From: Branchiostoma floridae
Taxonomy: Eukaryota > Chordata > Leptocardii > Amphioxiformes > Branchiostomatidae
NCBI RefSeq assembly: GCF_000003815.2
Contig: NC_049979.1
Location: forward strand, 14,741,459 to 14,805,458
DNA: 64,000 bases
Direction of reading: 5' to 3'
Within the stretch, counting starts at the first letter, position 1. Each line of letters opens with the position of its first letter. The notes under the pieces were generated by a model, which saw only the letters and a list, made by a program, of their open reading frames with translations, searched no databases and had not been told where the DNA came from. This document shows, in pieces, positions 422-27,890 of the stretch. A program made the position numbers and the translations under genes.

Positions 422-3048
422 CTGGTCAATGGCACACGGGATCAGACACTGGATATCTTTTCTACCCCCAAAGATCTGTGGGAAGGATGAGCTGAAGGAT
501 GGGGCTGCCTGGATAGATGGAAAACTGATCTTTCCTGAAAACAAAAGAAACGTGTAGAATCTGTGACATCTTAAGTCAGGATAATGCACACAAAAAACAC
601 AATTTCTGACAGGACCAATAGTATGATATTACGAAAGAAATACTAACCTATGCATGTACTGTCCCCAAAGCCAAAGATTCCCTTGACTTGGTTGAAGGTG
701 ACACATTTTTGAATTTTCAGCATGGTGCGGTAGAAATCTGGTGAAGAGCTGGACAAATACAATGGTTAATGTCATACTTTGTCCAATAGGTATACACATA
801 CAAACTATCTCAAGTACTTAAATTGATAAGTGAAATTTCAACACAAGCTGCTTTGCGGCATCACAACATAAAATGTTGCTTCAATCATCAAGATATACAG
901 AACTGCAAAACTGAACCTGCTGTGGGATGGGCAAAGGTCAACAGTATCAAAACTTGTATAAACTGGACGTAGTTCTCATGGAGAGGTCAGAAATATTTTA
1001 GTTGTATAATTGCTGGCATAAAGTTAATCAAAAAGTAAATGTTCTGTCCTGTTGACTGAGAATGACAGATACAGAGAAACCTTGCCGTACAAGCTGCCTA
1101 GCAGTCCACATCTAACCCAATAGAGAACTTGTGTATGAATGCCATCTAACCCGATGTAGTCCATGTCTGAGAAAATGAAGGTCTTGTCGACGTCAAAGCC
1201 CAGGGCAATGATGTCTTTGGCATTCTCACTAGCCAGTCTTCTGGCCTCCTCTGCTGTCAGGTCCTTCCACAGAAACTTCTCATCATCAGTCAGCTGGATC
1301 ACCAAGGGAACGTCAAAAATGTCCTGTAACCACCTGAACAGAAATGTAAAAATGGAACAAAGTGCTGATGTGACTCAGGTATAAAATATTCATTCATAAC
1401 AGTATTTGCTGCAACCTTTAGAGGAAGATGATACAAATACACGTAGGATACAAATCTACATTAAAATAATCTGTAAATACCAAAACATCGGAAGTGTGTA
1501 CTATCTTGGTTGTGTTGGAAGAACTATATGGATACAATAAAATAATCCTTACTTGGTAATCATGAAGGGAATGAGATGTCCAACATGCATTGCTTCTGAT
1601 GATGGCCCTCTCCCTGTGTATAGGAAAAATGGCTTCCCTTTTTCGTAGGCATCTAGGATCAGGTTGACATCCCTATATGAAGCAAGAGAATAAAAAAAAT
1701 CTGATAAGTGAAACAAAAATGAATTGCTCTTGAGACAAAAAAAAATAATGAGTAGCACAATCTAAATATAATAGACCACCTGACCATTATATCATGTCCT
1801 AATGTATGAACATCATTTCAACAATTATAACATATTCCCTTGCTATGCAGTAATTCAGGAAGGATGTCAGACGAGCTGCACTATTGTGAACTCAGACCAT
1901 GGCCAATCTGGCTGAGTTCAACACCAAGTCAAGTCCTAACTAACCCTAGCAATTTTCCAACTTGTTCAAACTTGCAGAAAAAAATCTGCACACAATTGCA
2001 TGTCTTGACTTTGACTTTGTTTAATGGATGTCAGCCATAACAGTAAACTTGAAGATTGTAGAGTGAATAAGAACATACACAAAGGTGTGAACAAATACAT
2101 AAAGCTGTGCTCACCTGTGTGAAAAGATCATGCCTCTAGTCAGTAGATGGTGGGCGGGCTTTCCTGTCACTCTCACAATCCTGTCAATTAGGTCCTGTTC
2201 AATCTTCGTGCTCCCAAACTGGGCTGCAGACAGAGATATGATGGAAGACAAAGGATGTGAAAACAAATAAATTAATAAAGGAAATTTTGCTTCACAATCT
2301 GATGACTTATGATTTGCATATTTGTTGCAATGGAATAGACCAAGGAGGTTGAAAGAGGGAATAGTGTCATTAAGCACACATTCAGACCCAATAAATGTAC
2401 ACCGTATTTGGAAAATGTTAATAGTATTAGTAGAAATTGTACTAGAATGAATACAGTTGAAAATTCTTTGGAGAAGCATCTCGGTTTTCCTTTGGATACT
2501 AGTAGCGTTACTTTAGGGCAATTCCTTTTTTTTTGTAAGAAAGCATGCTCAAACAATTAAAAGGTATGAAGTCAATGCTCATATTCTTCTAGAGTAGCGA
2601 CTTAACCTGTGGTTAACTTGTGGCGAACCAACTATTTTACTTTTATTTGCCTTGAATCTTTACCTTATTTTTACTTCACTATTAACTTGTATTCTAACAA
2701 ACAGTCCACGTTTTAGTATTATTTAGGCATTCTAGATACTCTCTCATGCATGGGTAATTTTGGAAATTATTTCATTTTCTTTCATACTCTTACCAAAATG
2801 AAGAACTCTACTCTACTCTACTCTTCATCATTTGCCCCTGCTTCAAAATTTTAACACAGTCCTCCTTCTGAATAAAAAAAACAAAAAAACTTACCTATTA
2901 ACTTGTCATAGTTAACACCTTTCTGACTTCCTGACGTGACTTCCCATGGAGTGATCAGTTGGTCCTCAGTCTCCTCCTCTGGCGGGTTCTGTTCTCCATC
3001 CTGAAGCTTCAGGTTCTCCACACCCGGAACTGCCCCCTCCTCTGCCAT
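422..3048 (-). CDS. WARS1: Tryptophanyl-tRNA synthetase, cytosolic (N-terminal part, 6 exons)
   Basis: This class I aminoacyl-tRNA synthetase charges tRNA-Trp in the cytosol. Coding exons, in transcript order on the minus strand, are 3048-2895, 2223-2115, 1672-1553, 1333-1151, 748-648 and 534-422; they sum to 780 nt (260 codons) in one open frame. The protein starts [16 protein letters not shown] and continues into the catalytic Rossmann fold. The HIGH-type ATP signature is visible as [12 protein letters not shown] (exon 3), followed by [15 protein letters not shown] (exon 4), [15 protein letters not shown] (exon 5) and [20 protein letters not shown] (exon 6), all typical of eukaryotic TrpRS. 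The KMSAS loop and anticodon-binding domain lie beyond the left edge. The start ATG at 3048 opens the exon's only family-like frame. No WHEP domain is encoded upstream of it, so the protein resembles human mini-TrpRS in layout. The exon 4 donor (GTTAGA) is weak but gives the correct phase. The gene is head-to-head with WDR25. Confidence 0.96.
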
Positions 3049-3692
3049 ATTGAGTGATGAAATTTCACAACGTGCTCCCCGCTTGCAACGTGGACAGTTC
3101 CACACCGAATTTCTCCTTGCGCTGGGGGGAGAACAAGAGAATAAACAATAGAAATGAGACGACTTAGAATTGGACTTAATCTGAAAATCGAAATATAACG
3201 CAATAGGACTTCCATATACCGTAATATCCCACAGAACCGCACTGCTTCTTTGCAAACCTCATGCAATAAGTCCCGGTGGAAGAAACTATTAAGAGTTTTA
3301 GGGGAGTATTGAGTTATATTTAGTTTTCAACACGACACATAACCAACAGAGGCACAAAAACCATTAATTTAGATACATACTCCAAGTCGGTTTACAAATA
3401 AACATTCTTTAATAACCATTAAATTGTATGTTAGTGCAGTCATTTCATAAATGATTATTCGTGTCATCCCTAAATTGAAGAACAGTTTCCTCCATTTTGA
3501 TCTTTGTAGTAAATCGAGCATCCACCCACAATGCACCTTGTGCAGTATCATGGCGGCGTCCGTGATGGACAGGCGATTTTGACGACTTGTGTTCGGGATT
3601 TTTCCGCATTGATTCTGGACACATCCAGTGAAAACAACTACCTGTAAGAGCTCTGATTTGTGGAAAATACGTCTAGTCGTGAGTTTGTGGCG
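3049..3692. promoter_or_regulatory. Shared (bidirectional) promoter region WARS1/WDR25
   Basis: Only 644 bp separate the divergent start codons of WARS1 (3048, minus) and WDR25 (3693, plus), so both promoters must lie here. A YY1-like ATGGCGGC core sits at 3550-3557, a motif common near transcription starts of housekeeping genes. No TATA box is evident. The same head-to-head pair exists in the human genome. Transcription start sites cannot be placed from sequence alone. Confidence 0.6.
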
Positions 3693-6600
3693 ATGAACGC
3701 GCTCGTACAGTATGAGAGCTCAAGTTCAGACGAGGAGGAGGGGCGGCCACCTTCCGCGGCAAGACAAGCAAAAGCTGCAAAACGAGGTTCCTCCAAGTCT
3801 GGCGGGAAGAAGGCCAAAGTGGCGTCAGCAGAGGTCACACAGAGCACCAATGTCCAAGCTCAGAACCCAGCAGGATATTCCAATGATTGGCAGGCAATGG
3901 GTTATTCCCAACAAGGCTATGGGCAGACTTGGCCGCAAGGCTATGACTACAGTCAATATGCACAGGCTTATGGACAATGGGGAGACTATCAACAGTGGGC
4001 TAACTACTATGCCGGGTACGGACAACAGCAACAGTACGGTACACAGGCAGCCATGCAGCCTCCCGCAGTCCCACCACAAACCAGTTCAGTCACACAATCT
4101 ACGACTACTGGATCATCAACCTCAGATGTAACACCCCAGCCCCCTCCACCCTCAGGACCCCCCTCAGAGAAACCCCCCCTACCAACAGGTGCACCACCAG
4201 CACCCTCCACCACAGGTCAACAACCGGAGGAAAATAGTCCAGCGTCTCAGACGCAAACCACCTCTGCAACATCGTCTAGTGTGGATTCTCAGGTTAGTAC
4301 GGCCGGGCAGGTGCAGGCTGGCTCGCAGGACACCAGCTCTGGCCAGGCAAACATGGACCCCAACATGATGTGGAACAACATGTGGAACTACCAACAGTAT
4401 GATCCACAGGCATGGAGCCAGTATTATGCAGGGCAGGGGTATCAGGACCCTAACATGGCAATGGGTCAGTGGGGCCAATGGGGCCAACAGTGGCAGAACT
4501 GGCAGCAGCAGCAACAGCAGCAAGGTACTCCTGAACAGACTGGACAACAGAAGGAACAGCAAACCCAGCAACAAGGAGGCTTTCAGACTACGCCTCAAGC
4601 TGCAACTGGCAACACAGAACAAAAGCCGCCTCCTCAGGGGCCACCCCCTCAGGGTCCCCCACCACAAGGACCACCACCACATGGCCCTCCACCCGGACTG
4701 AATGGTCAGGATCATTGGCAGAGTCCAGATTGGCATCAGTCCTGGCACCCAGGCCAAATGGGCCAACGACCACCTGGCCCCATGGACCATGGGCCAAGGA
4801 TGAGGATGAGGCACATGGGCCCAATGGATCATGGACCCCGCCCACGTCACCGTGGCCCCATGGATGGCCCAAGGCATCGCCACCCCCCACCAATGGGCCA
4901 GGGACCTCGGATGAGGCATCCAATGGAACATGGACCTCGGGGTCCTCGTGGGCCCATGGATCATGGGCAAAGGCCAAGACATCATGGACCCATGGACCAA
5001 AGACCACGACATCCTGGCGGAATGGATCAAAGACCACGGCACAGGCATCCAGGTCCGATGGATTTTGGACAGCGGCCACGGCATCCTGGAGGTATGGACC
5101 AGCAACCCCGACATCCCCCATTGATGGAAAAAGGACAGCAGCCACGGTTTCCAGGTTCAGCAGATCAAGGCCCCCGGCCCATGGAGCGGCCACGGAATCC
5201 TGGTGCAGTGGATCAGGGACCAAGACCAAGGTTCCCTGGACCAATGGATCAAAGCCAGAGGCCACGGCACCCTGGCCCAATGGGTCCGAGGGGAAGAGCT
5301 CCTGATATAGGGGAAGGGAAAGACACAAGGTGGAGTGGACAGCCTTGGCAGAGAGATAATCGTGGTCCCAAAGATCAGGATGATCAACAGGAAGATCAGG
5401 AGTCAGAACAACCTCAAAAGAAGGAAGAGCCAGCTACTGAGGAGAAACAAAAACCTGCACTTAGCTTGGCAGAGAGGCTCAAGATGATTGCTGAGTCCAA
5501 GGCTCCACAAACTGGTTCTGCATCTAGTCACCTAGCTTCAAGGCCCACACCAGCAGAGAAGGACAAAAAGAAAGGTTCTGATGAAAAGGGAAATGCAAAC
5601 TATGTACCTTTAGGATTTAACAAACTGCAGCAGATGTCACGAGGAAATCAGGGCAGTGATAATGGCAGGGAAGGAAGAGGACCAAGAGGTGAACGTGGAG
5701 GTCGGGGGGACAGGGGTGGACAAGGTGGCAGAGGAGGGAGGGATGACCGAGGGGGAAGGAGGAGCAGGTTTGGACAAGACGATGAGCCAAGGGGGTCATC
5801 TTGGGGACGAGACAGAAACCAGCCATCATACAGGTCTGGCAGAGAGGGCAGGCCGGACAGGGAAGGAAGAGATCGAGACAGCAGGTCAGACAGAGATGGT
5901 CGATCCAGCAGGTTCAGCCATGACTCCAGGGACAGACAGGGTGACAGCCAGCAGGAGAGAAGAGGGAGTAGGTTCTCTGGTGGGCCACCTTCACACGGGG
6001 AGCAGAGCAAACCTGGTGGGGAGGGAAATGTGAGGTCAAACATAGATGGAAAGCAAAGTCGCTGGGAGACCCCTCGTAGCACTGGGACAGATGACCCTCA
6101 GAAACAACCCAAAACCAGGACAAAATGGGGAGCAGAAACCACGGATGGCCAGGAGAGCCTTTCCAAAGCACTGCTCCCAGATCCCGCAGGCCAACCAGGA
6201 GGAGGAGGCAATCACCAGGGCAATCCTCCATCACTATTTGACATCCAAGTTCAACCTTCATCCCATCTCCAGCAAGGTCAGGGCCAAGGTGGCCAGCAGC
6301 AGTTGAGACAGAGAGGAGAACAGGAGTCTAATCCTCCCGGTCCAAGAGCATCCCCATCTGTAGGTCCAAGGGGACCTTCTCCCACTGGCTTTAGGGGACC
6401 ATCTCCTACAGGGCTAAGAGGACCTACTCCCCCTGGACCAAGGGGTTCCCCTTCCCCTGGACCAAGAGGTCTACCGCCCCCTCAGTTTCAGGGACACAAC
6501 CAAGGGAACTGGTCACAGCAGAACTTTGGGTCCCCTGAGGGACAGGGCAGTGGAATGAAGAGAGTGTCCTCAAATGACTCCCAATTCTCTCCTTCTGATG

Positions 6601-9227
6601 GAGGACCAGGCATCCATCCCTACACGCCCAAACGTGCCAGACTAGAGCCAGATGGGTCGCCTAGCAACCCCAGCCCCACCGGCATGGTGCTACAAGACAC
6701 CACCATGGCTGCAGTACAGGATATATTTGAACCATACCCCAAAATTGTGTTTGCCCTGGGGAAAGCTTTGCAAAGCAGGATTCCTGAGAAAAGACTTGTT
6801 GATCTGCAAGGCCACACGGGTCCCGTGAACACTGTGGAGTGGTGCAAGGCCGACTGTAGCCATCTTCTCCTGTCTTCCTCCATGGACAGGTAAGGTTGTA
6901 CATAAGAGTTGACAGTATGCTCACTGAAGAATGGAAGTACTGAGTATCATAGCCGTAAACTGTATGAGAATTATCAATTATCACTGTAAGCCATACTTAA
7001 AAGTTTTTTGTTATATTTCATCTAATTTCATCTTAATTCAAACAACTGGCAGACATAAGTCTGAATTATGTTATGATGACAAATGTTACTAGGCAGGATC
7101 ACTTATCCATTATCCTTCATCAACTTAAAGGTTAACAGATAATCAAGAATCTAAGATTGACTAATCTAGAACCATTGAAAAATAATAGAACCTATTCAAT
7201 ATAACATTAGAGAGGACATCTACGCTATCCATCATACAATTGCTTTTCGATCTTTCCATCCAGCAGTGATGCCTTGGAAATTGTAGCCTTCATGAGTTAT
7301 GACCAACATGCATCAAATAACTTAGCACACCCAGGAATGCATATTGTACTCCAAAGTGTTGTTTAAATCAATCTGAGTCATTCTGACATTTTAAGAAAGC
7401 CTCGATTTCATTTGATGATAACAACTTCCAGTCAGAGTAAATTGTAATGATGTCTACTTCTCCTTCCCATGTGCAGGACTGTCAGAGTCTGGGATGCCAT
7501 TGGAGATGCCAAGTGTGTCCGAACTCTGACCAATCACAGGGCAGGAGTGAAGATGGCTGCGTGGACTTCAGACAAGAAAGTGCTGAGCTGCAGCTTTGAC
7601 AAGACTGCTCAGCTCACCGATCCACAGACAGGTGAGAATGCTGCTCACTTAACCCTCTCCCTGCTGAGGAAGGGTTTTGGCACCAATTTTTGTTGTTGCT
7701 GGTTTTGTCAAGTATGATATATTTGTACTTTTTTTCACCCATTGGAGTCAAAGGTATATATATACCTGAAGTATGCAATTACTAGTAATGAAATTGCATG
7801 TGTCTAGCTTATTAATGCAAAGAATATACACATGGATTTCATTGATCTATATGATCAAATGTCCATTTATGTGACAATGTATTGTTTTCCAGGTCAAACT
7901 GTGTCAACATTCCCCCATTCCAATTTTGTGACTGTTGTTCGAGTCCATCCCCAGGAACATAACCTGTTCCTGACTGGGTCCACAGACATCATTCAGGCTT
8001 GGGACAGCAGGACAGGCAAGGTAAGATGTGATCATGTATGACTTCCCACCAAGGAAAGTTTGGCTTGTCTGTCAGTGTATTTTTATTTTTTGCAATGCTG
8101 CTATTGTTTGTTTGGGGGCCTGAAGCAAAGCAGTATGGGTAAGGATGTGATGGCTTCCTTCGCTAATTTGATTTCTGCCTTTTTGGGTGATTATTACAGT
8201 TACATGATGCAACAATTACCAGAAAATTGACTAACCAATACAAATGTTTGAACTTGTTAATAGGCTGTTCGGGATTTTAAATGCAAGTTTGGTTCCGTTC
8301 TGGACTTGGCCTTCCTGTCTGACGGGAAATCATTTGTCAGCAGCGCTGATGTTGTGGCAAGAGACTCCGCCGACAAGACGATCATGGTGTGGGACTTCAG
8401 CTCTGCAGCCAAGCTGTCCAACCAGATATTTCATGTAAGACAATATAGATGGCAGTGTAAGGATGTCAGGCTTTTCAAGATTTAGCTTTGAGCCTATGTA
8501 CTACATGTATAGGTCGCTGTATAAGTATGGTATGGTATAAATGTAATGTGAAAGTAATGTGGGTAAAAGCATGTTGCAAAATGCCCTGGAGTTTTCTGCT
8601 GACAGAAATTGGAAATGGACAGAAAGAAATTTATTCTGTCCTTTGTTTTGTCTTCACATCATGTATATCTGATGTAAACATGTACTTATTTCATTTGTTT
8701 TGTTCCAGGAGCGATATAGCTGCCCTTCTCTGGCTGTCCATCCCTCAAAGCCAAACTTCATTGCCCAGACTAATGGAGACTACATTGCCCTCTTCTCCAC
8801 ATCTCGCCCATATGCCATGGACAAGACTGTCCGTTTTGAAGGACACAAGGTTAGAAATTAACTTTTTGTTTCAGCTATATTTTTGTATTTTGCATAACAC
8901 AAAGGGTTTCCGGCATGCAGCAATAGCTGTGACATGAAGCAACCTGTAAAATCTAAAGACTAAAGTTTGAGTAAAGCTGAACTGATCCTAACCCTGATGT
9001 TGTAGGTTCAGGGGTATCGGATCGGCTGCGAGTTTACCCCAGATGGACAGATGATCGTGACTGGTAGCGGTGACGGGAAGGTGCACTACTTCAACTTCTA
9101 CTCGGGGGAGAGTGCACGTGAGCTGAACGTGTACACAAACCCGTGCACAGATGTGAAGTCCCACCCTGTCCTGAGCAGCACCCTGGCTACCTGCAGCTGG
9201 AGTGGACAGGTCTCTGTCTGGCAGTAA
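3693..9227 (+). CDS. WDR25: WD repeat-containing protein 25 with giant disordered N-terminus (6 exons, 1337 aa)
   Basis: Exons are 3693-6889, 7477-7631, 7893-8020, 8264-8434, 8709-8849 and 9006-9227; the joined length is 4014 nt, in frame. The C-terminal 300 residues form the WD40 propeller: [77 protein letters not shown] and a final [13 protein letters not shown]. These match vertebrate WDR25, a relative of splicing factor CDC40/PRP17 whose function is poorly known. The start at 3693 ([17 protein letters not shown]) is chosen because the upstream frame has no ATG and human WDR25 begins similarly (Met-Ala-Ser-Leu-Val then acidic/Ser). Residues about 64-118 and 220-290 are Y/Q/G/W-rich, 311-336 are PPPQG repeats, 356-540 are GPMD-type repeats, 650-700 are RGG boxes, and 880-930 are GPSPTG repeats. 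TPKRAR near residue 980 is a likely nuclear localisation signal. Human WDR25 lacks this expansion. Confidence 0.93.
4760..5310 (+). repeat. Coding tandem repeat (GPMD-x-G-x-RPRH type) in WDR25
   Basis: About 15 degenerate units of 10-15 codons occur here, with cores such as [24 protein letters not shown] and [13 protein letters not shown]. They encode a Pro/Arg/Met/His-rich, presumably disordered stretch (residues about 356-540). The nucleotide periodicity (CCCATGGAyCA.GG) makes long open frames on the opposite strand, which are artefacts. A second, shorter coding repeat of about ten codons (GPSPTGFRG type, 5-6 units) lies at 6330-6480. Confidence 0.9.
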
Positions 9228-9862
9228 ACAACACTCCTTCCTAGGGCTGCTCCAATAGGATTAGTTGGTTCTTGGATATTTTTAGATTGAAAAACAGAGG
9301 AGGTGAATTTTTCAGATGATCTGGAGGATATATACAGAGTCACTTTAGAGGTAAAAAGGTGTAAGAAGAATGTTTATAGATTTGTTGCCATTTTTTGTCC
9401 TCCAAGAAAAAAAATTCAAGAAACAACTAATTCAACTGTAGTAGCTTGTTGTACAGGTCATTTTACATGATCCATAATAGGACTGTACAGGTACTGACAT
9501 ATGTTAAAGTAGACATGTGTATACATGTAGATTATGTGTGAAACATAAGGGGAAGATTTTTTAAGTAATTAGCCAGTGTGTGTGCAAGATTTTTTTCATT
9601 AACATGGTAATGTTATGTCTTGCTTGCAGTCCATTGTTATGTGTAGTCAGTGGAAAATGTATGACTATGAGTAATTGTAATGATTTATAGAAAACATTTT
9701 TCACTTTTCAAATATTTTTTTTCTAACATTTGTTGAGAAAGGGTAGTCTGTGATCATGTTGATTGTTGAGCTTTTTGATTTGGGCCATTTTTATCAGTTA
9801 GAGCATTTTGTGACACCTTGTGATACTGGGTTGAGGAAACAAACTAAAAAAGTTTCTGCATG

Positions 9863-12426: not shown

Positions 12427-15400
12427 TCAGAAGTCCAACAAACTCCCTGTGAGCTGTGCAGCCTCAAGACTATTACGTCGCCTAGGTGCCCTTTCATCTT
12501 CCTCACTTGGTGCTTCTTCCATTCCATCCTTCTCAGCTTGGCTGCTGACTGGTGCACCTTCTATTGATTCCTTATCTCGGCTTCCTTCTTGCCTGCTTTC
12601 AGCTCCCTTGTTTTCTTCTTCAGTATCTTTGTGTACTCCTAGAGAAGTCTGAGAGTCCTTAGGAGGACACTTCTGTGTTGCCTTACTGATGTTGCTGTTG
12701 TCTTTGCTGACCGAGCTAGAGTTGTCCTTCCTTAGATGCTGCTGTGACTCAGGCTCATCTGAGCCCCCTCCTCTTTCTTGGGTTGGACTACTATTCTGTT
12801 TGTCCTGGGTTGGACTACTGTTTTCTTTAGCCTTTTCTTGCTTCTCACCACTCATCACAGGTGTTTTCACCTTCTTCTTGGTTCCAGTTTTCTTAGCTCC
12901 AGTTTTTGTCACTTTCTTCACCTTAGTTGTACTTGTCTTTTTAACAGTGCTCTTTGGTCTGGCTCCAGATTGTGGTGTACCTGGTGTAGTTGACTCAGAA
13001 GGTGGTTTGGCATCTTTGGTATCAAGAGAAGTAGGACTTTTTGTAAGACTAAGAGGAAGATCTGAGTTTTGAGAGTCAGCACCAGTAGAAGCCTTCTGGG
13101 TGACATTATCCACAGGTGGCTGGTCTGCCTCTGGCTTCATCTTTGCGGAATCTGAAAGCAAGGATGGGCCTTCAGCCTGTGGTGAGGGATCGCTACCATT
13201 CGCTTTGTCCCGTGTATCAAGGTTACTTTCAAGGTCAATGAGAGGCTTCTCTTCTGTCTCAGCAACAGCTTTCTTAACCTTGACTTTGACACTCACTGCA
13301 GCTGTCTGATCTTGCCTCACCACTTTAGACTGTGGACTGGTCGATGGTCCTTTCTCCTCGACTTCAACAATGGAATCATCATTCAGCTCATAGGCTCTCT
13401 CATTACTATCTTCCAGTAGTGGCACACTTTCTTCTGCTACAGAGACAGTTTTCATAGCTCTGCTTGCCGCAGTGCTCAGTTCTGTTGCTTGAGGAGACGA
13501 CAAAGGTATTTTTCCTTTGACATGAATAACAGAATCATTGGTTCCATCATCTTCAGAGATTCTATTCTCATTCGTTTCTAGTAGTGGCTCAGTTTCTTCA
13601 GTGACAGACAGAGTCTTCCTAGTCTTTCCTTTTGTAGTTTCAAAGCTTGATCCTGACTCTGCCTTTATTTCTCTGGGTATCTTGGTTTGAGGATGCACTT
13701 TCTTAACATTACCTTTACCACCAAGTTCACCATTTCTTTCAGCACCCTTTTCCAGCAATGGTACTGTCTCTTCTCCATCTGCTCCTTGAGGCCCAGTCTT
13801 CTTAACTCTAAGCCTATTGTTTCCTGAATGTGTCTGATCTGCTTCTGACTTCAACCCTTTAGGCTGGGAAGAAGGGATCTTTTCTCTTTTGACATTAATT
13901 GTTGAATCACTAGTAGCTCCATCTAGTAGTGGTTCTGTCTCTTCTGTAGTAGGTCCTATCTTTTTAGCCCTGACTTTGGTGCTCCCTATTGAAGCCTGGT
14001 CTGCTCCTTTCTTTTTAGCTTTGGTTGGACTTGTATGTGATGATCCCGCTACCTTTGACTGAACCTTCTTGGCCCCCGCTCCCTCCTGTGATTCAAAGTC
14101 TCCATTGACATTCGGGCGTTGCATCTGTGCTTCATGTTCAGAATTTCCACTTTGTGTGAGCTGTGGAGCAGGGGCAGAGGGTCTCTGAGTATCCTTTGTT
14201 AGTCTGGGTGTCTGGTCCAGGTTCTGTCCAGTGTCCTTTCCTCTTGATATGGGCATGAAGGCTCTGACCTTGAGAGTATCTTTGGAGGTCGTGGATGCAG
14301 CCTGGTCTTCAGCAACCTTAATTGGCTGCCACTCTCCAGTGGGTTTGCCAGTTTCTGCTGCTTTAGGAATATCTCTTGTGTTTCCCATATCCACACCATA
14401 CGCAGTGAATCGTAGCGGTTTTGCCTTTATCACTTTCCCATGTCCCTGATCAATGTCCTCTGGGTTGGTCTGCACACAGGCATCAAACAGAATCTTCTCT
14501 CTGCGTGCCCCCACACCGCGGACTGTGCGGACCTTTAAAGGTTGACAAGAAACAATTGTTATCGTTTAATGTTTTGGGGGTTCAAAGACTCCAGGAAAAG
14601 CAGTAATGGGCACTGCTGAACAATATCCAAATAAGCTGACAAACAAAAATCCAGAAGATTCTTAGATGCATATATAAAAGATGAAACTCAAGTACGACTG
14701 CATGTCAAGTAAGACTAAAATGTACTTGGACAAGTACATATAGCTGTTATTGTTCTTTATCTATAAAGTTTGCAAATATTGTTAATGGTTAAGCGCACAG
14801 CGTGCAGGAAGAGATATACTAATCTATAGACGCTGCAAATGGATCTGAACCAAAACAAACAAACAAACCGGATGTGGCTTCTGGAGCACCTCGGCCAGCA
14901 CAGCAGTGGGGACGACAGCGTCTGCCGGCGCACCAGGGGCAGACTGGGCAGCCTTGACCTTCCTGTGGTTCTTGGTGACCTGTTCCATATGCTGCTGCAG
15001 CCTCTCCTGCAGCTCAGGGGGAAGCTACACACACAACACACACACAGCAATTTGAGTTACAAAAAATAGTGTCATATTGAAAGATCAACATAAAAACATT
15101 CTAGCCTAAAAGAAAATTTTGTTTCTTGGTACACACAGTTTTAAGGAATATAATCAGTGGCAAGTTTCCCTACCAGCCTGCTGTTTTCATCTTGACCTCA
15201 TACCACATTTTTCTCTTGAAATGTCAAAAAAAAAACAAGGAAACAGGCTCATTTTCCTTGTTTGTACAATTTAATGGAAGCTACTAGGCTTTACAAGTGT
15301 GACAGGAAGTTCTCCCGCAGAAAGTTCAGTACAAGTAAACAATTCCAATGTGAGAAAAGATAGGTTGACTACTTACTGAGCTGAATTTTGGAGAGACAAA

Positions 15401-21266: not shown

Positions 21267-21667
21267 NNNNNNNNNNNNNNNNNNNNNNNNNNNNNNNNNN
21301 NNNNNNNNNNNNNNNNNNNNNNNNNNNNNNNNNNNNNNNNNNNNNNNNNNNNNNNNNNNNNNNNNNNNNNNNNNNNNNNNNNNNNNNNNNNNNNNNNNNN
21401 NNNNNNNNNNNNNNNNNNNNNNNNNNNNNNNNNNNNNNNNNNNNNNNNNNNNNNNNNNNNNNNNNNNNNNNNNNNNNNNNNNNNNNNNNNNNNNNNNNNN
21501 NNNNNNNNNNNNNNNNNNNNNNNNNNNNNNNNNNNNNNNNNNNNNNNNNNNNNNNNNNNNNNNNNNNNNNNNNNNNNNNNNNNNNNNNNNNNNNNNNNNN
21601 NNNNNNNNNNNNNNNNNNNNNNNNNNNNNNNNNNNNNNNNNNNNNNNNNNNNNNNNNNNNNNNNNNN
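21267..21667. other. Assembly gap (401 N)
   Basis: This is a run of unknown bases. It is bordered on the left by the 101-bp minisatellite and on the right, within 100 bp, by a perfect palindrome. Both structures commonly break assemblies. Confidence 1.
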
Positions 21668-22172: not shown

Positions 22173-25100
22173 GACGATGATGTGGCTGATGACCAACTCG
22201 CGACGCTCCTGGTCTTTCCGCCAGAGGTCCAACAGGCCATAGATCAAGTCCTGCCGAGCAACGACCCTCTGGATCGCCCTGACTTCAACCCGGTGGAGTA
22301 CATCAACACGCTGTTTCCCACGGAACAATCTCTCGCCAATATCGACGAGGTGCGGCCGGCGGCCTCATACTTTTACTTTAGAGTAGAGTAACGTTTAAAT
22401 TATAGATATGAGAAGTTGGGGGTGTGCTGAAAAAGCTGATGACTATGAAAAATATATACCCTTAACTGTCACGGATTCAGTTCAATTCAACGTAAGTTGT
22501 TGAGCTACAGAGCTAATATCCAAAATGACGTTCTTAGTTAATAGAACAAGATTATGGTAAAATCAGTACCTGAAAAAATTGTGATGAAAAGAGCATATCG
22601 TTTAATATATGGTTCGATGAGTGTCCAAGGCTAGATATGTCATCCGTTCCTTGGAACCGTCCCTGAATTTTAGTGTTGCTATTGGCTATTCTTTGCATAC
22701 ATGGTGAACAAGGGAGAATTGCTGTGGAAGGACTAATGCTTTTTGCAAACCCCAATCAATTTCTGTAGGTTGTGAACAGAATCCGCTTGAAGATCCGTCG
22801 TCTTGATGATGACATCCGCGGGGTTGTGCGAGGTCAGACGAACGTGAGTCAGGATGGGCAGGCGGCCCTGGAGGAGGCACAGAAGGCCATACAACAGCTG
22901 TTTGAGAGGATCAAGGACATCAAGGACAAGGTCAGCACCTTAACTTCATACTAGTAGCTGCTTAGTCCTGCAAATTTGTTTAAAGACTTTATTTTACGGT
23001 AGAGAAGGCACTGCCTAAACCACATATATAACACCACTACAAATATTTAGAGAATATGCAATAGTATAGTGATTAACAATCCTGCTTCTCAATAAGTCTT
23101 TGCAGTTGTGTTTGTATAGGCCATAGCACCTGATTTTTCTGGTATTGCCCCAGGCTGAGAAGTCAGAGGAGATGGTGAAGGAGATCACCCGTGATATCAA
23201 ACAGCTGGACCACGCTAAGCGCCATCTTACCTCCTCCATCACCACCCTGAACCACCTGCACATGCTGGTAGGGGGCGTCGACTCTCTGCACTCCCTCATT
23301 CGCCGCCGGCAGTATGGAGAGGTTGCCAACCTGCTGCAGGGAGTGGTAAACGTCATGGAACACTTCCACAAGTACATGAGCATCCCACAGATCAGCCAGC
23401 TCGCAGATCAGGTTTGTTGGTGTAGATGTCAAATAAACAATAAAACCAGAAAAATCGCCCGAGTGCAGATCTTTGCCCGCATGAATTGCTCCATAGAACT
23501 AACATGCCTAACAAGTTTACAGATTAAAAGAGAGCTGCCTGGAAATTTGATCAATCTTGCTCAAACATGTCACATATTTGGTAGGTTTTATTTGCAGACC
23601 ATATACGGACAAAACTGTAATGATAAGTCCATCAGTGTTTTTTAATTACAGGTCCTTTCTTGAAAAGATTCAAGACTAATTTCTCTTTCACTTCTAGGTG
23701 AAACAGATCCAGACAGAAGTTGGTCAACAGATATTGGCAGATTTTGAGGAGGCATTCTCGGCCCATGGTGGAAAAGGTCTGGGACCCAGCAACACAGCGC
23801 AGCTGGCTGAGGCATGTCTGGTAGTGAATGTCCTTGACCCCAAGGTCAAGCGTGACCTGATGAAGTGGTTTGTGAAGCTGCAGCTGCAGGAGTATGCAGC
23901 GCTGTTCCACGAGGGGCAAGACGTCGCCTGGCTTGACAAGATCGACCGTCGCTATGCCTGGCTCAAACGAGCGCTGGTTGAGTTCGAGGAGAAGTTTGGG
24001 AACATGTTCCCTGCTGAGTGGGCAGTGAGCGAGAGGATTACTGTGGAGTTCTGCCACATCACCAGAAAGGAGCTGTCTCGCATCATGACCAACAGGAAGG
24101 CGGAGATTGAGGTAAAACTGCTCCTTTTTGCCATCCAGAGAACCACCAACTTCGAACAGCTGCTGGTGAAGAGATTCACTGGCATCACGTTTGAGGAGGA
24201 GGGGCAAGGCCAGAATTTAACCAACCCGTTTGTGGAGCCACAGCAACTGGAGTCAACAAACCCATTTGAAGTGGAAGATGAAAATTCACAAGCTGCACCA
24301 GCCAAGCCAAAGCAGTCTCCATTCATTGGCATCATCTCCCAATGTTTTGAGCCACACCTGCACGTCTATATCCTGTCTCAGGACAAAAACCTAGCAGAAT
24401 TGATCGAGCGGTTTGTTCAGGACTTCAAGGAACACGGTGTTCCCCACGTAGAAGGTGAGGATGGAGGTGCAGTCCTGCCAAGTTGTGCAGACCTGTTTGT
24501 GTTCTACAAGAAGTGCATGGTGCAGTGCTCACAGCTGAGTGCGGGGGCACCCATGGTGGACCTCGCAGGGGTGTTCCGCAAGTACCTGAGAGACTATGCC
24601 AGCAGGTTGCTGATTGGCAATTTGCCAAAGGTAAGGCCTGAAGTGCTAGCCTGGGTAGTAGATTTGCTCAGCTTGCTTCTTCCATTGTAGTCAACCAATA
24701 GTTAACTAGGGAGTTTCATGAGCTGAAAAAGATGGTGTTGAGACTATAGGAGCACAAGGTTTGTTAATACTTGTATACTGATTTCATATAAATTTCACAA
24801 GCTGTTCAAGTTTGTATATCTTCAAATGAAACAATTTAGCATGATTAAAAAAACAGGCCCAATAATAAGAACTGCTGATTCCCAACTGGTATCAACCTGA
24901 ATATAAAGTGAGTAAGGGAGTTTGGAACTTTCATGTTCTGTAAAATACCCAGTAAGTATGCTTGGATCTCATATCCCAACCTGACAAGAAATTTTTGGAC
25001 TGCACAATCTTTATATTATTTTGTTGCATCACACTAAGAGTATATTAAGAATATATAAGGAAACTTAATTTTTTCTTTAAACTTGCTTTGTGTACACATG

Positions 25101-27890
25101 ATGTTTTGCATGCATGAATGTGAGATGCTCCATGTTTGATAGTCAATATATTGTGATTCTTATTATTCCTCCAACATGATAATGGTTTAACTTTGACTCA
25201 AAATGCAAAAAACTGTCCAAAAAAAAGATGTATGACCAAAGCGTTTTGCCTACAGGTCAAAACTTTGTTTTGGAATAATTTAGTCATCTTGTTGTTAAAA
25301 GTTTAAACCTTAGTCACTGTTGAACTTTTATGTTTATATTGTGTTTTGCCATTTTGCTGTTGTCTGCATGTTGCATGGCAACGATAGCCATTTCTTTTTG
25401 TGTTGAAGGTGAGCAAAGGATCCACGGCACATGAGTCAATGCCAAAGGACATGCAATTCTACAGGATGCTGTCTCAAAGTGTTAGTCACACTGGTAGAAC
25501 AGTAGTTAAGATAATGGGTCTAGATATTACGGTTGTGTTGTTCATGATCATGCGAGTAGGTGGCATTAAGTACTGTACAACACCAGAAGTATGCCTAGCT
25601 ATAAGCCTTAAAGAACCTATACTTTTCCCATGGTGACATTCCTGAGGCTATGGATTGCATGCTTAAGTAGGTTTGGCTTTGTAATTAGCAGGATTGTCAT
25701 TATTAATCATTTATCACTCAGGTGATTTACATGATTGTCAGTATGTGAACTTATACAAATGCAAAGCATCTTTTAAACATCTGCAAATCAAAACTGTGCA
25801 TACTTGAAAGGATTTCTGATGCTGCAATATCAAGTCACCTGATGGATAAAAGTTTAATGTCAACAAGCCAGAGATGTAGTTGTTATTCTTGCTGTATGTG
25901 CATGTCTGCAAGGTACTGTAACATTACATCATGGGTGTGGAATATTGGAATATGGTGTACAGTTATAGTGACACACTATGGCTATGGTAATGTTAGCTGC
26001 ATTTCTGCCATAGTTGGTAAATTATCCCATACTTCCCAGTGACCTTCCTTCAGACACCCTTACTCCTGTGGACCTGTGACATGTTGTGTGTTGGTGCAGG
26101 TAACCACCAGTGGGGGAGGGCTGACCATCTCCAGCCTGCTGAAGGAGGGGAACCAGGAGCTGAGTAAGTTCAGCCCTGAGGAGCAGCGTCTTGTCTGCAG
26201 CATCTTGTGCACGGCTGAGTATTGTCTTGACACATCTCAGCAGCTTGAGGACAAGCTCAAGGAAAAGGTAAGACAGAAGTTGCAATCTCAATGGTGATTC
26301 AAATAAAGAATGAGTGACTGAATAAATAAAGGCTTAGGCACATGAATAAACGAAGGAATTTGAATGATTGAATGAATGAATGAATGAATAACTAATTGAA
26401 GGAACAAACAGTGACTTTTAATTTTGACCATGTCTGACCTTCATTAAAGTGACTATTATGCTGTTATTTTATGTTTTTCTTGTACTGATATGAAGGGCGG
26501 AAAAACATTGTCATTGTAAAAACTTTTGGCATAACAAGATATGGACAAGCCAGGGCACTACCACTGCCTGTCATCATAATATATATGTTTACACATCCCT
26601 GATTGTGAGTCAAGCCAGTTGTTTCCTCTCCTCCGCGTCCCAGGTTGAACCATCCCTGAGTGAGCAGATTGACCTGTCTCAAGAGATGGACCTGTTCCAC
26701 ACCGTCATCTCCAACTGTATCCAGCTGCTGGTACAGGACCTGGAGGGGGCCTGTGAACCATCCCTCGCTACCATGGCAAGGGTCAACTGGCAGGTAGGAC
26801 TGACTCCATGTCAGTAATGTCAGTATTTCAAAGTGATCTTTTGATTGTTCCTTGCCACCAAGGTTCATGTCAACTGGTAGGTACAGTCTTACTGACATTT
26901 GCTTTTATTAGTAAATGTCTCTGACTTTTCACTAGCATGACCTGCATAGTTAAACACTTCCTTATGTCAGGTGATTTCATGTCCTTCATTGAAATTACTC
27001 CAAACGGTTAACTACAGGTAATGGTGAGATTTTGTAGCAAGGTCCCAATATTGGTGTCTTCAAACTACAAACACTTTTGTTCATTTGAGGTTTTAGTTGG
27101 TTACAAGCAAAAGAAACACTCCTGACAGGAATCACAGATGAAACAGTATGTGTTCCCTCAGAAGGAGAATAGACTAAATGTCTCTGAAATTGATCTAAGG
27201 TGGCATCAAGCATAGAATGTTGTTGAAGATTACTATGATTTTACCAGGATGTACAGTTCCAACCACTTTGCATTACAGGCTGTGGAAACAGTGGGTGACT
27301 CCAGTAACTACGTCACTGCCATCACCATGCACATTAAAACAGCTGTGCCACTCATCCGAGACAACCTGGCCTCCACCCGTAAGTACTTCACCCAATTCTG
27401 CACCAAGTTTGCAAACTCCTTTGTCCCCAAGTTCGTCACCTACTTGTACAAGTGTAAGCCCATCAGCACAGTTGGGGCAGAGCAGCTCTTACTGGATACC
27501 CACTCCCTCAAGACCGTGCTGCTCGACCTCCCTTCCATCGGATCTCAGGTCAACCGCAAACCTCCAACAAGCTACACAAAGATCGTGGTGAAGGGCATGA
27601 CCAAGGCTGAGATGATCCTGAAGGTGGTGATGTCCCCTCACGACCCACCTGCAGGGTTCGTGGACAATTACATCAAACTCCTGGCCGACTCTGACACTGG
27701 AAACTTCCAGAAAGTCTTGGATATGAAGGGTCTTAAGAGAAGCGAGCAGAGCACGATGTTGGAACTGTTTCGCACCAGACTGCCGGCCCCGCCGTCAGGT
27801 GAAGCACAGGCGTCCAACATGACACCCTCTCCAGAACAGGACTCCAGCAGGATCAGGAAGTTAGAGAAACTTATAAAAAAGAGACTGTAG
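22143..27890 (+). CDS. VPS53: VPS53, subunit of GARP/EARP tethering complexes (7 exons, 829 aa)
   Basis: VPS53 tethers endosome-derived vesicles at the trans-Golgi network (GARP, with VPS51, VPS52 and VPS54) and takes part in endocytic recycling (EARP). Exons are 22143-22349, 22769-22930, 23154-23411, 23698-24630, 26100-26267, 26644-26793 and 27279-27890; the joined length is 2490 nt, in frame, close to the human length. The conserved N-terminal coiled-coil region shows [40 protein letters not shown] and [17 protein letters not shown]. The middle has [35 protein letters not shown] and [20 protein letters not shown]. The C-terminus has [21 protein letters not shown]-like [40 protein letters not shown] and a final [15 protein letters not shown]. 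The first 25 residues are lineage-specific; an in-frame ATG at 22143 is the nearest start that lies outside the diverged upstream sequence. The first exon overlaps one arm of an inverted duplication. Confidence 0.97.
24631..26099 (+). other. VPS53 intron 4
   Basis: This 1.47-kb intron is bounded by AAG|GTAAGG and TTGGTGCAG|GTAACC. It is AT-rich. The ORF at 25400-25636 in it is not VPS53-like and does not keep phase, so nothing coding is supported. Confidence 0.7.
26361..26390. repeat. (GAAT)n microsatellite
   Basis: A run of GAAT/TGAA tetranucleotides in VPS53 intron 5, with looser GAATAAA-type copies on its left from about 26300. Confidence 0.85.

Follow-up and report, generated by a model that had tools for sequence, protein, structure and literature searches.

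A long, predicted disordered N-terminal arm encoded in the first exon of lancelet WDR25

The window analyzed here, a 64,000-nucleotide stretch of the Branchiostoma floridae genome (contig NC_049979.1, positions 14,741,459 to 14,805,458, forward strand), contains a gene for the WD40-propeller protein WDR25, and it is the long first coding exon of this gene that forms the subject of the present analysis. Six exons, whose ends were picked by eye, join across five GT-AG introns with consistent frame to give a protein of 1,337 residues followed by TAA. The first of these lies within a + strand frame that is open from stop to stop over 3657-6893 (1,078 residues), with an in-frame TGA at 3654-3656 upstream of the first in-frame methionine at 3693. 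Its open run of 1,065 codons may be compared with a longest run of 521 (mean 192) over the six frames of 1,000 sequences simulated from a first-order Markov model of the exon. An earlier annotation made from the letters of the window and their reading frames (hereafter the sequence-only reading) had described one uninterrupted exon joining a disordered N-terminus to the start of the propeller, a description upheld by both the open run and the spliced model. As judged from the sequence, this N-terminal arm is genuinely encoded in WDR25.

The identity of the gene is established by its propeller. In a search of the PDB, considering the best 60 of 451 matched sequences, the C-terminal 368 residues recovered as their best match the WDR25 chain 9xu3_W (E 2.8e-102, 345.7 bits), a 544-residue chain which we take to be human by its identity to the known human sequence. 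The second-ranked match was 2ymu, a repetitive WD40 protein (180 bits over 7 stretches), below which came the best Prp17 chain, 8xi2_W (160.7 bits), and two Prp17 chains, presumably human, at 146 bits. By these bit scores, which are not a tree, the propeller is nearer to WDR25 than to CDC40/Prp17. Further, a search of the 513-Mb, 431-contig assembly with the propeller, which represents part of the protein, returned the six exons as the sole strong matches, the best of the 19 matches listed that lay elsewhere having an E of 8.8e-7; WDR25 is apparently single-copy in this genome. Upstream, the exons of WARS1 occupy 1090-3048 on the - strand, head to head with WDR25, and match tryptophanyl-tRNA synthetase 2quh (E 8.3e-77); the first base of the WARS1 start codon is at 3048 and the two start codons are 645 bp apart. 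For the mouse, PMC10097420 mentions Wars and Wdr25 side by side among genes proximal to the Dlk1/Dio3 cluster. The assignment to WDR25 made in the sequence-only reading thus agrees with both the best PDB match and the adjoining WARS1.

The arm comprises 1,033 residues ahead of the RLVDLQGH that opens the propeller, about four times the length of the corresponding human region, and consists of 14% Gly, 14% Pro, 13% Gln, 9% Ser and 9% Arg, with I, L, V and F together contributing 6%. An acidic start is followed by a Tyr/Gln/Gly/Trp-rich segment, a Pro/Thr/Ser-rich spacer, a Gln/Trp-rich segment, PPPQG repeats and an array of GPMD and RPRHP units. Next come a charged linker with a hydrophobic cluster, an RG/RGG region (core at residues about 658-690) passing into an Arg/Asp- and Arg/Ser-rich one, PRGPSPTG repeats and finally PYTPKR (Table 1). 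The first Tyr-rich segment spans 66 residues with 18% Tyr and is prion-like by composition, the label having no published predictor behind it. When counts of short motifs in the arm were set against 2,000 composition shuffles, none reached the 7 GP[MA][DE] or the 10 RxRH motifs, 7 reached the 22 RG and 10 the 9 PPP, while the 6 [GSQ]Y[GSQ] and the 4 RGG were reached by 100 and 175 shuffles, respectively, and the 15 RS/SR dipeptides lie at chance (1,247). The motif [AQ]WxxYY, picked post hoc, occurs twice, a count that none of 2,000 shuffles reached. The elements named in the sequence-only reading, namely the Y/Q/G-rich segment, PPPQG runs, GPMD repeats and RGG boxes, are present; the RGG and [GSQ]Y[GSQ] components are weaker than had been stated.

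Table 1. Features of the WDR25 locus (window coordinates)
Feature	Position	Strand	Remarks
CpG-rich promoter-like stretch between WARS1 and WDR25	3001..3800	.	CpG observed/expected 0.73-1.03, four 200-bp windows
WDR25 coding exon 1	3693..6889	+	1,065 codons plus 2 bases; donor ACAG|GTAAGG (strong)
Conserved N-terminal acidic motif	3693..3743	+	human counterpart MASLVAYDDSDSEAETE; 17-residue comparison score 31
Y/Q/G/W-rich prion-like segment 1 (residues 58-123)	3864..4061	+	67% QNGSY, no I/L/V/F/C
Q/W/G/N-rich prion-like segment 2 (residues 217-310)	4341..4622	+	59% QNGSY; second [AQ]WxxYY copy
PPPQG repeats	4626..4697	+	15-bp tandem repeat 4641-4693; start residue 312
GPMD/RPRHP array, 14 units	4776..5285	+	codon-position differences 0.33/0.30/0.59
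Hydrophobic cluster, 11 residues, candidate helix	5457..5489	+	longest cluster among those listed for the arm
RG/RGG core passing into an Arg/Asp/Ser-rich stretch (residues about 658-770)	5664..6002	+	sequence
PRGPSPTG repeats	6354..6480	+	24-bp tandem repeats 6368-6482
PYTPKRAR motif before the propeller	6618..6641	+	human PYTPRRLR; local score 37, 0/500 block shuffles
Start of WD40 propeller	6792..6889	+	exon 1 end alone matches WDR25, E 4.3e-9
WDR25 exon 2, propeller	7477..7631	+	GT-AG model, PDB and genome matches
WDR25 exon 3, propeller	7893..8020	+	GT-AG model, PDB and genome matches
WDR25 exon 4, propeller	8264..8434	+	GT-AG model, PDB and genome matches
WDR25 exon 5, propeller	8709..8849	+	GT-AG model, PDB and genome matches
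WDR25 exon 6, propeller, stop TAA	9006..9227	+	GT-AG model, PDB and genome matches

The arm is predicted to be disordered over nearly its whole length: FoldIndex, run in 51-residue windows, called 968 of 983 windows unfolded in the arm as opposed to 2 of 254 in the propeller, and the 15 arm windows not so called are the last before the propeller. Together with the spliced model, this bears out the roughly kilo-residue disordered N-terminus that the sequence-only reading had proposed. In a Pfam search with the whole protein, the top-scoring stretch for every one of the 25 families listed (of 30) starts no earlier than residue 1029. Five arm pieces, which covered the arm save residues 145-202, 543-553, 657-658 and 1033 (72 residues) and the last of which had a wrong first letter, returned at E up to 10 only the sub-cut-off families SKG6 (E 5.5), WD40_2 (E 2) and DNA_pol3_tau_4, the arm match to the last-named having an E of 0.0075 and scoring 17.1 bits where the cut-off is 25. 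NCBIfam, a prokaryote library, yielded nothing in exon 1.

Comparison with the human sequence, the only one used for the motifs, allows conserved parts of the tail to be told from the remainder. The human tail was taken as residues 9-237 of 9xu3_W, which are identical to it letter for letter. The two proteins share the propeller, an LVxY-acidic motif, a PYTP(K/R)R motif and, on the evidence of the mouse, the Wars neighbor; they differ in that human WDR25 has about 240 pre-propeller residues against 1,033, and none of the Y/Q-rich, GPMD or RG segments, as the sequence-only reading, with a human figure of about 230, had maintained. The LVxY-acidic start of lancelet exon 1 lines up with human MASLVAYDDSDSEAE, with a score that 52 of 200,000 shuffles attain when residues 2-33 are permuted and 449 of 200,000 attain when the permutation is confined to residues 2-17. 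Both ends of exon 1 thus carry motifs of human WDR25; as, in addition, the gene is arranged head to head with WARS1 and the exon is preceded by the CpG-rich promoter-like stretch, we regard the exon as part of WDR25. The sequence-only reading had named two findings that would speak otherwise, namely that the exon belongs to another gene or that WDR25 starts near position 6700. The former finds no support, given the human N-terminal motif at the exon start, and the latter none in any CpG promoter signal around 6.7 kb. We accordingly hold it highly improbable that exon 1 derives from another transcript, or that an internal promoter drives WDR25 from the ATG at 6705 (CACCATGG) so that the arm is off the main product. 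That ATG does have a good start context; against it stand the anchors at both ends of the exon, the single frame open from exon 1 into the propeller, and an observed-to-expected CpG ratio of just 0.06-0.29 in the three 200-bp windows of 6201-6800, as compared with the high values of 3001-3800, a distribution that does not favor a CpG-type promoter at 6.7 kb. Other single raised windows within 2601-9400, at 8201 (0.73), 9001 (0.62) and 5001 (0.61), fall inside the gene. Capture of the exon from another gene was likewise considered and set aside: the 68-residue linker around the hydrophobic cluster has one other match in the genome (E 2.57, 34% identity), in a low-complexity 626-residue frame that by eye we take to be NCoR-like, and residues 1-110 match only themselves. 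These paralogue searches covered residues 1-110 and the linker, the remainder of the arm lying outside them. Ahead of the WDR25 start, at 3550-3582 on the + strand, there is also an upstream frame of 10 codons beginning ATGGCGGCG, whose context presumably resembles a YY1-type promoter element.

The repeats provide an internal measure of constraint. The 16 GPMD-type motif starts yielded 14 units, the one at residue 495 being merged into its neighbor and the last (528) serving as the end. When aligned as DNA, codon positions 1, 2 and 3 of these units differ at 329, 301 and 587 of 993 comparisons each (0.33, 0.30 and 0.59), these being pair counts over related and hence non-independent units. Single-base codon differences number 293 synonymous and 111 non-synonymous in 980 codon comparisons, on a protein-guided alignment that leans toward synonymous excess; for comparison, synonymous outcomes make up 23% of the single changes possible in these units. 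On this one internal test, the third-position excess is as would be expected for constrained coding sequence. Because the repeat units are constrained, the composition of the arm appears to be maintained, though for what purpose is not indicated by the constraint.

A functional setting for WDR25 is suggested by its relationship to the splicing machinery. PMC9887622 describes WDR25 as the sister paralogue of CDC40 (PRP17), uncharacterized as of 2023, and as showing the phyletic distribution that is typical for proteins of the minor spliceosome; it is the one paper found to join WDR25 with the minor spliceosome. CDC40/PRP17, a second-step factor of the major spliceosome, shares with lancelet WDR25 a homologous propeller (up to 161 bits) in line with this sister relationship (same source), but is the more distant of the two in sequence. 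Among PDB entries, WDR25 is found only in 9xu3, the ARMC7 sequence in 7dvq, 9xtt and 9xu3, and SCNM1 in 7dvq and 8y7e and in neither 9xu3 nor 9xtt. We take entry 7dvq to be the human minor spliceosome in its activated state, with SCNM1 departing ahead of the catalytic steps. The presence of ARMC7 and WDR25 in 9xu3, combined with the absence of SCNM1, suggests, as the simplest reading, a late minor spliceosome in which WDR25 occupies the place of Prp17. The chain letter W is also that of Prp17 in 8xi2, a weak fit, as other entries use other letters. In the lancelet genome U12 (132 bits) and U6atac (134 bits) each score above the Rfam cut-off at one locus, and since both RNAs are present the animal likely possesses a minor spliceosome. 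Matches to the U12-type donor RTATCCTTT in the window are at the expected level (2 against 1.7). WDR25 is likely to be RNA-associated because it is a Prp17 paralogue and shares 9xu3 with ARMC7, a route to this property that does not pass through any likeness to FET proteins.

Taking these strands together, we consider it fairly probable that lancelet WDR25 is the minor-spliceosome counterpart of Prp17 with an expanded disordered tail that acts as a multivalent arm between two anchors. The open coding exon, the identity of the gene, its two anchors, the constraint on the repeats and the presence of minor-spliceosome RNAs in the genome have been shown above; membership of the lancelet minor spliceosome and each step of the arm's action are what we infer, as follows. 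WDR25 would be the minor (U12-type) counterpart of the second-step factor Prp17/CDC40, its propeller joining the late minor spliceosome and its N-terminal tail tethering that propeller. In the lancelet the tail would have grown, partly by repeat expansion, to about 1,030 disordered residues, with the expansion flanked by the LVxY-acidic motif on one side and by PYTP(K/R)R on the other. The enlarged tail is most likely a flexible multivalent arm, in which Y/W/Q-rich segments may give weak protein contacts and the Arg-rich RG, RPRH and RD/RS segments RNA contacts, such that WDR25 would be kept near the pre-mRNA and other splicing factors.

Several observations weigh against this account. The placement of 9xu3 is indirect, having been read from shared chains and not from the title of the entry, and RGG shows no clear excess in the arm over its composition. 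Codon usage fails to separate the coding frame (correlation 0.59) from the other five (0.57-0.72). A rough splice-site scan inside exon 1 found no donor scoring at least 5 and no acceptor scoring at least 4, on weights under which 2 of the 5 real donors fall below 5 and 3 of the 5 real acceptors below 4; as the scan misses real sites, internal splice sites in exon 1 are possible. A PDB search with residues 1-50 (E up to 10) returned an unrelated phosphatase and no WDR25; in a free local search, 9 of 500 shuffles reached the score of the N-terminal piece; and in the phmmer alignment of the exon 1 end, what follows PYTP in the lancelet is paired with a later human stretch, not with PYTPRR. Two inner candidates for shared motifs, one of 22 residues and the other pairing EFIQPY with DIFEPY, are at chance level (reached by 381 and 281 of 500 shuffles, respectively), and the whole-tail alignment to human attains z 2.7-3.1 over shuffles. 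In view of these last results, it is the two ends of the tail that carry the case for its homology.

A serious rival, and one that we find quite conceivable, is that the arm represents the nearly neutral expansion of a soluble, flexible linker through repeats and low-complexity tracts, with no new function. Human WDR25 manages with about 240 residues in its tail, the inner motif candidates do no better than chance against it, and tandem repeat periods such as 15, 24 and 30 bp point to slippage or unequal exchange; additionally, the propeller and the anchors alone may suffice for spliceosome membership. What a neutral linker would not lead one to expect is that repeat units old enough to differ at 59% of third positions should differ about half as much at the first and second, although selection for mere solubility and the avoidance of stops could explain part of that low difference. 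The sequence-only reading had taken a different direction, regarding the arm as bearing the hallmark of FUS, EWSR1 and TAF15, and on that view WDR25 would be a FET-like condensate protein whose Y/Q-rich and RG-rich segments cause it to phase-separate and to bind RNA. The 66-residue Y/Q/G-rich segment with its Tyr content and the RG count above that of composition shuffles are in keeping with this, as is the presence, shared with the FET family, of a segment rich in Tyr/Gln/Gly with one rich in Arg/Gly later in the chain. However, neither an RRM nor a RanBP2-type zinc finger was seen among the 25 families listed (of 30) for the whole protein or in the five pieces of the arm searched up to E 10, and under the same E limit the Tyr-rich segment retrieved no FET chain from the PDB, its sole match being an unrelated chain at E 2. 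Moreover, RGG shows no clear enrichment over composition, the [GSQ]Y[GSQ] count is reached by 100 of 2,000 shuffles, and lancelet WDR25 has a WD40 propeller, PPPQG repeats and a large GPMD/RPRHP block, the last of which, to our knowledge, FET proteins lack. The FET comparison is not supported as made; the resemblance appears to be one of composition, not of kinship, and we judge a FET-like condensate protein distinctly improbable.

A bolder extension of the multivalent-arm reading, which we think unlikely although a little less so than the FET-like one, holds that a kilo-residue RNA-binding arm on the lancelet Prp17 counterpart concentrates U12-type splicing in condensates in a lineage-specific manner, with the propeller as a late docking platform and the tail free to evolve. 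Were it true, the arm would be an addition peculiar to this lineage on a machine that is conserved in other respects. A further comparison concerns FUBP-type proteins, which we take to carry AWxxYY motifs akin to the two [AQ]WxxYY copies of the arm. Arm pieces 1 and 2 have no FUBP domain match at E up to 10, and this reading was dropped in the absence of a Pfam FUBP C-terminal domain and of a supporting paper in the literature searched, a body from which most subscription papers fell outside.

Within that same literature we found no description of a long-arm WDR25 architecture and no paper joining WDR25 with amphioxus, and a search for WDR25 together with disorder gave only one paper, unrelated by its title. 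The evidence gathered here links WDR25 to the late minor spliceosome and sorts the parts of its tail into two short anchors that look conserved and a remainder that has been free to grow. As its human relative gets by on a tail roughly one quarter as long, lancelet WDR25 offers a natural test of what a disordered tail contributes to a splicing factor.

Elsewhere in the window, a 712-residue open frame at 12427-14565 on the - strand is Lys/Ser/Thr-rich with recurring EETEPLLE-like and VKVKK-like motifs; it matches nothing in Pfam at E up to 0.1 and is a second long, probably disordered exon. A run of 401 N, either a gap in the assembly or a withheld stretch, occupies 21267-21667, and VPS53 lies at 23698-27890 on the + strand, where both Vps53_N (E 6.2e-78) and VPS53_C (E 2e-26) are recognized.

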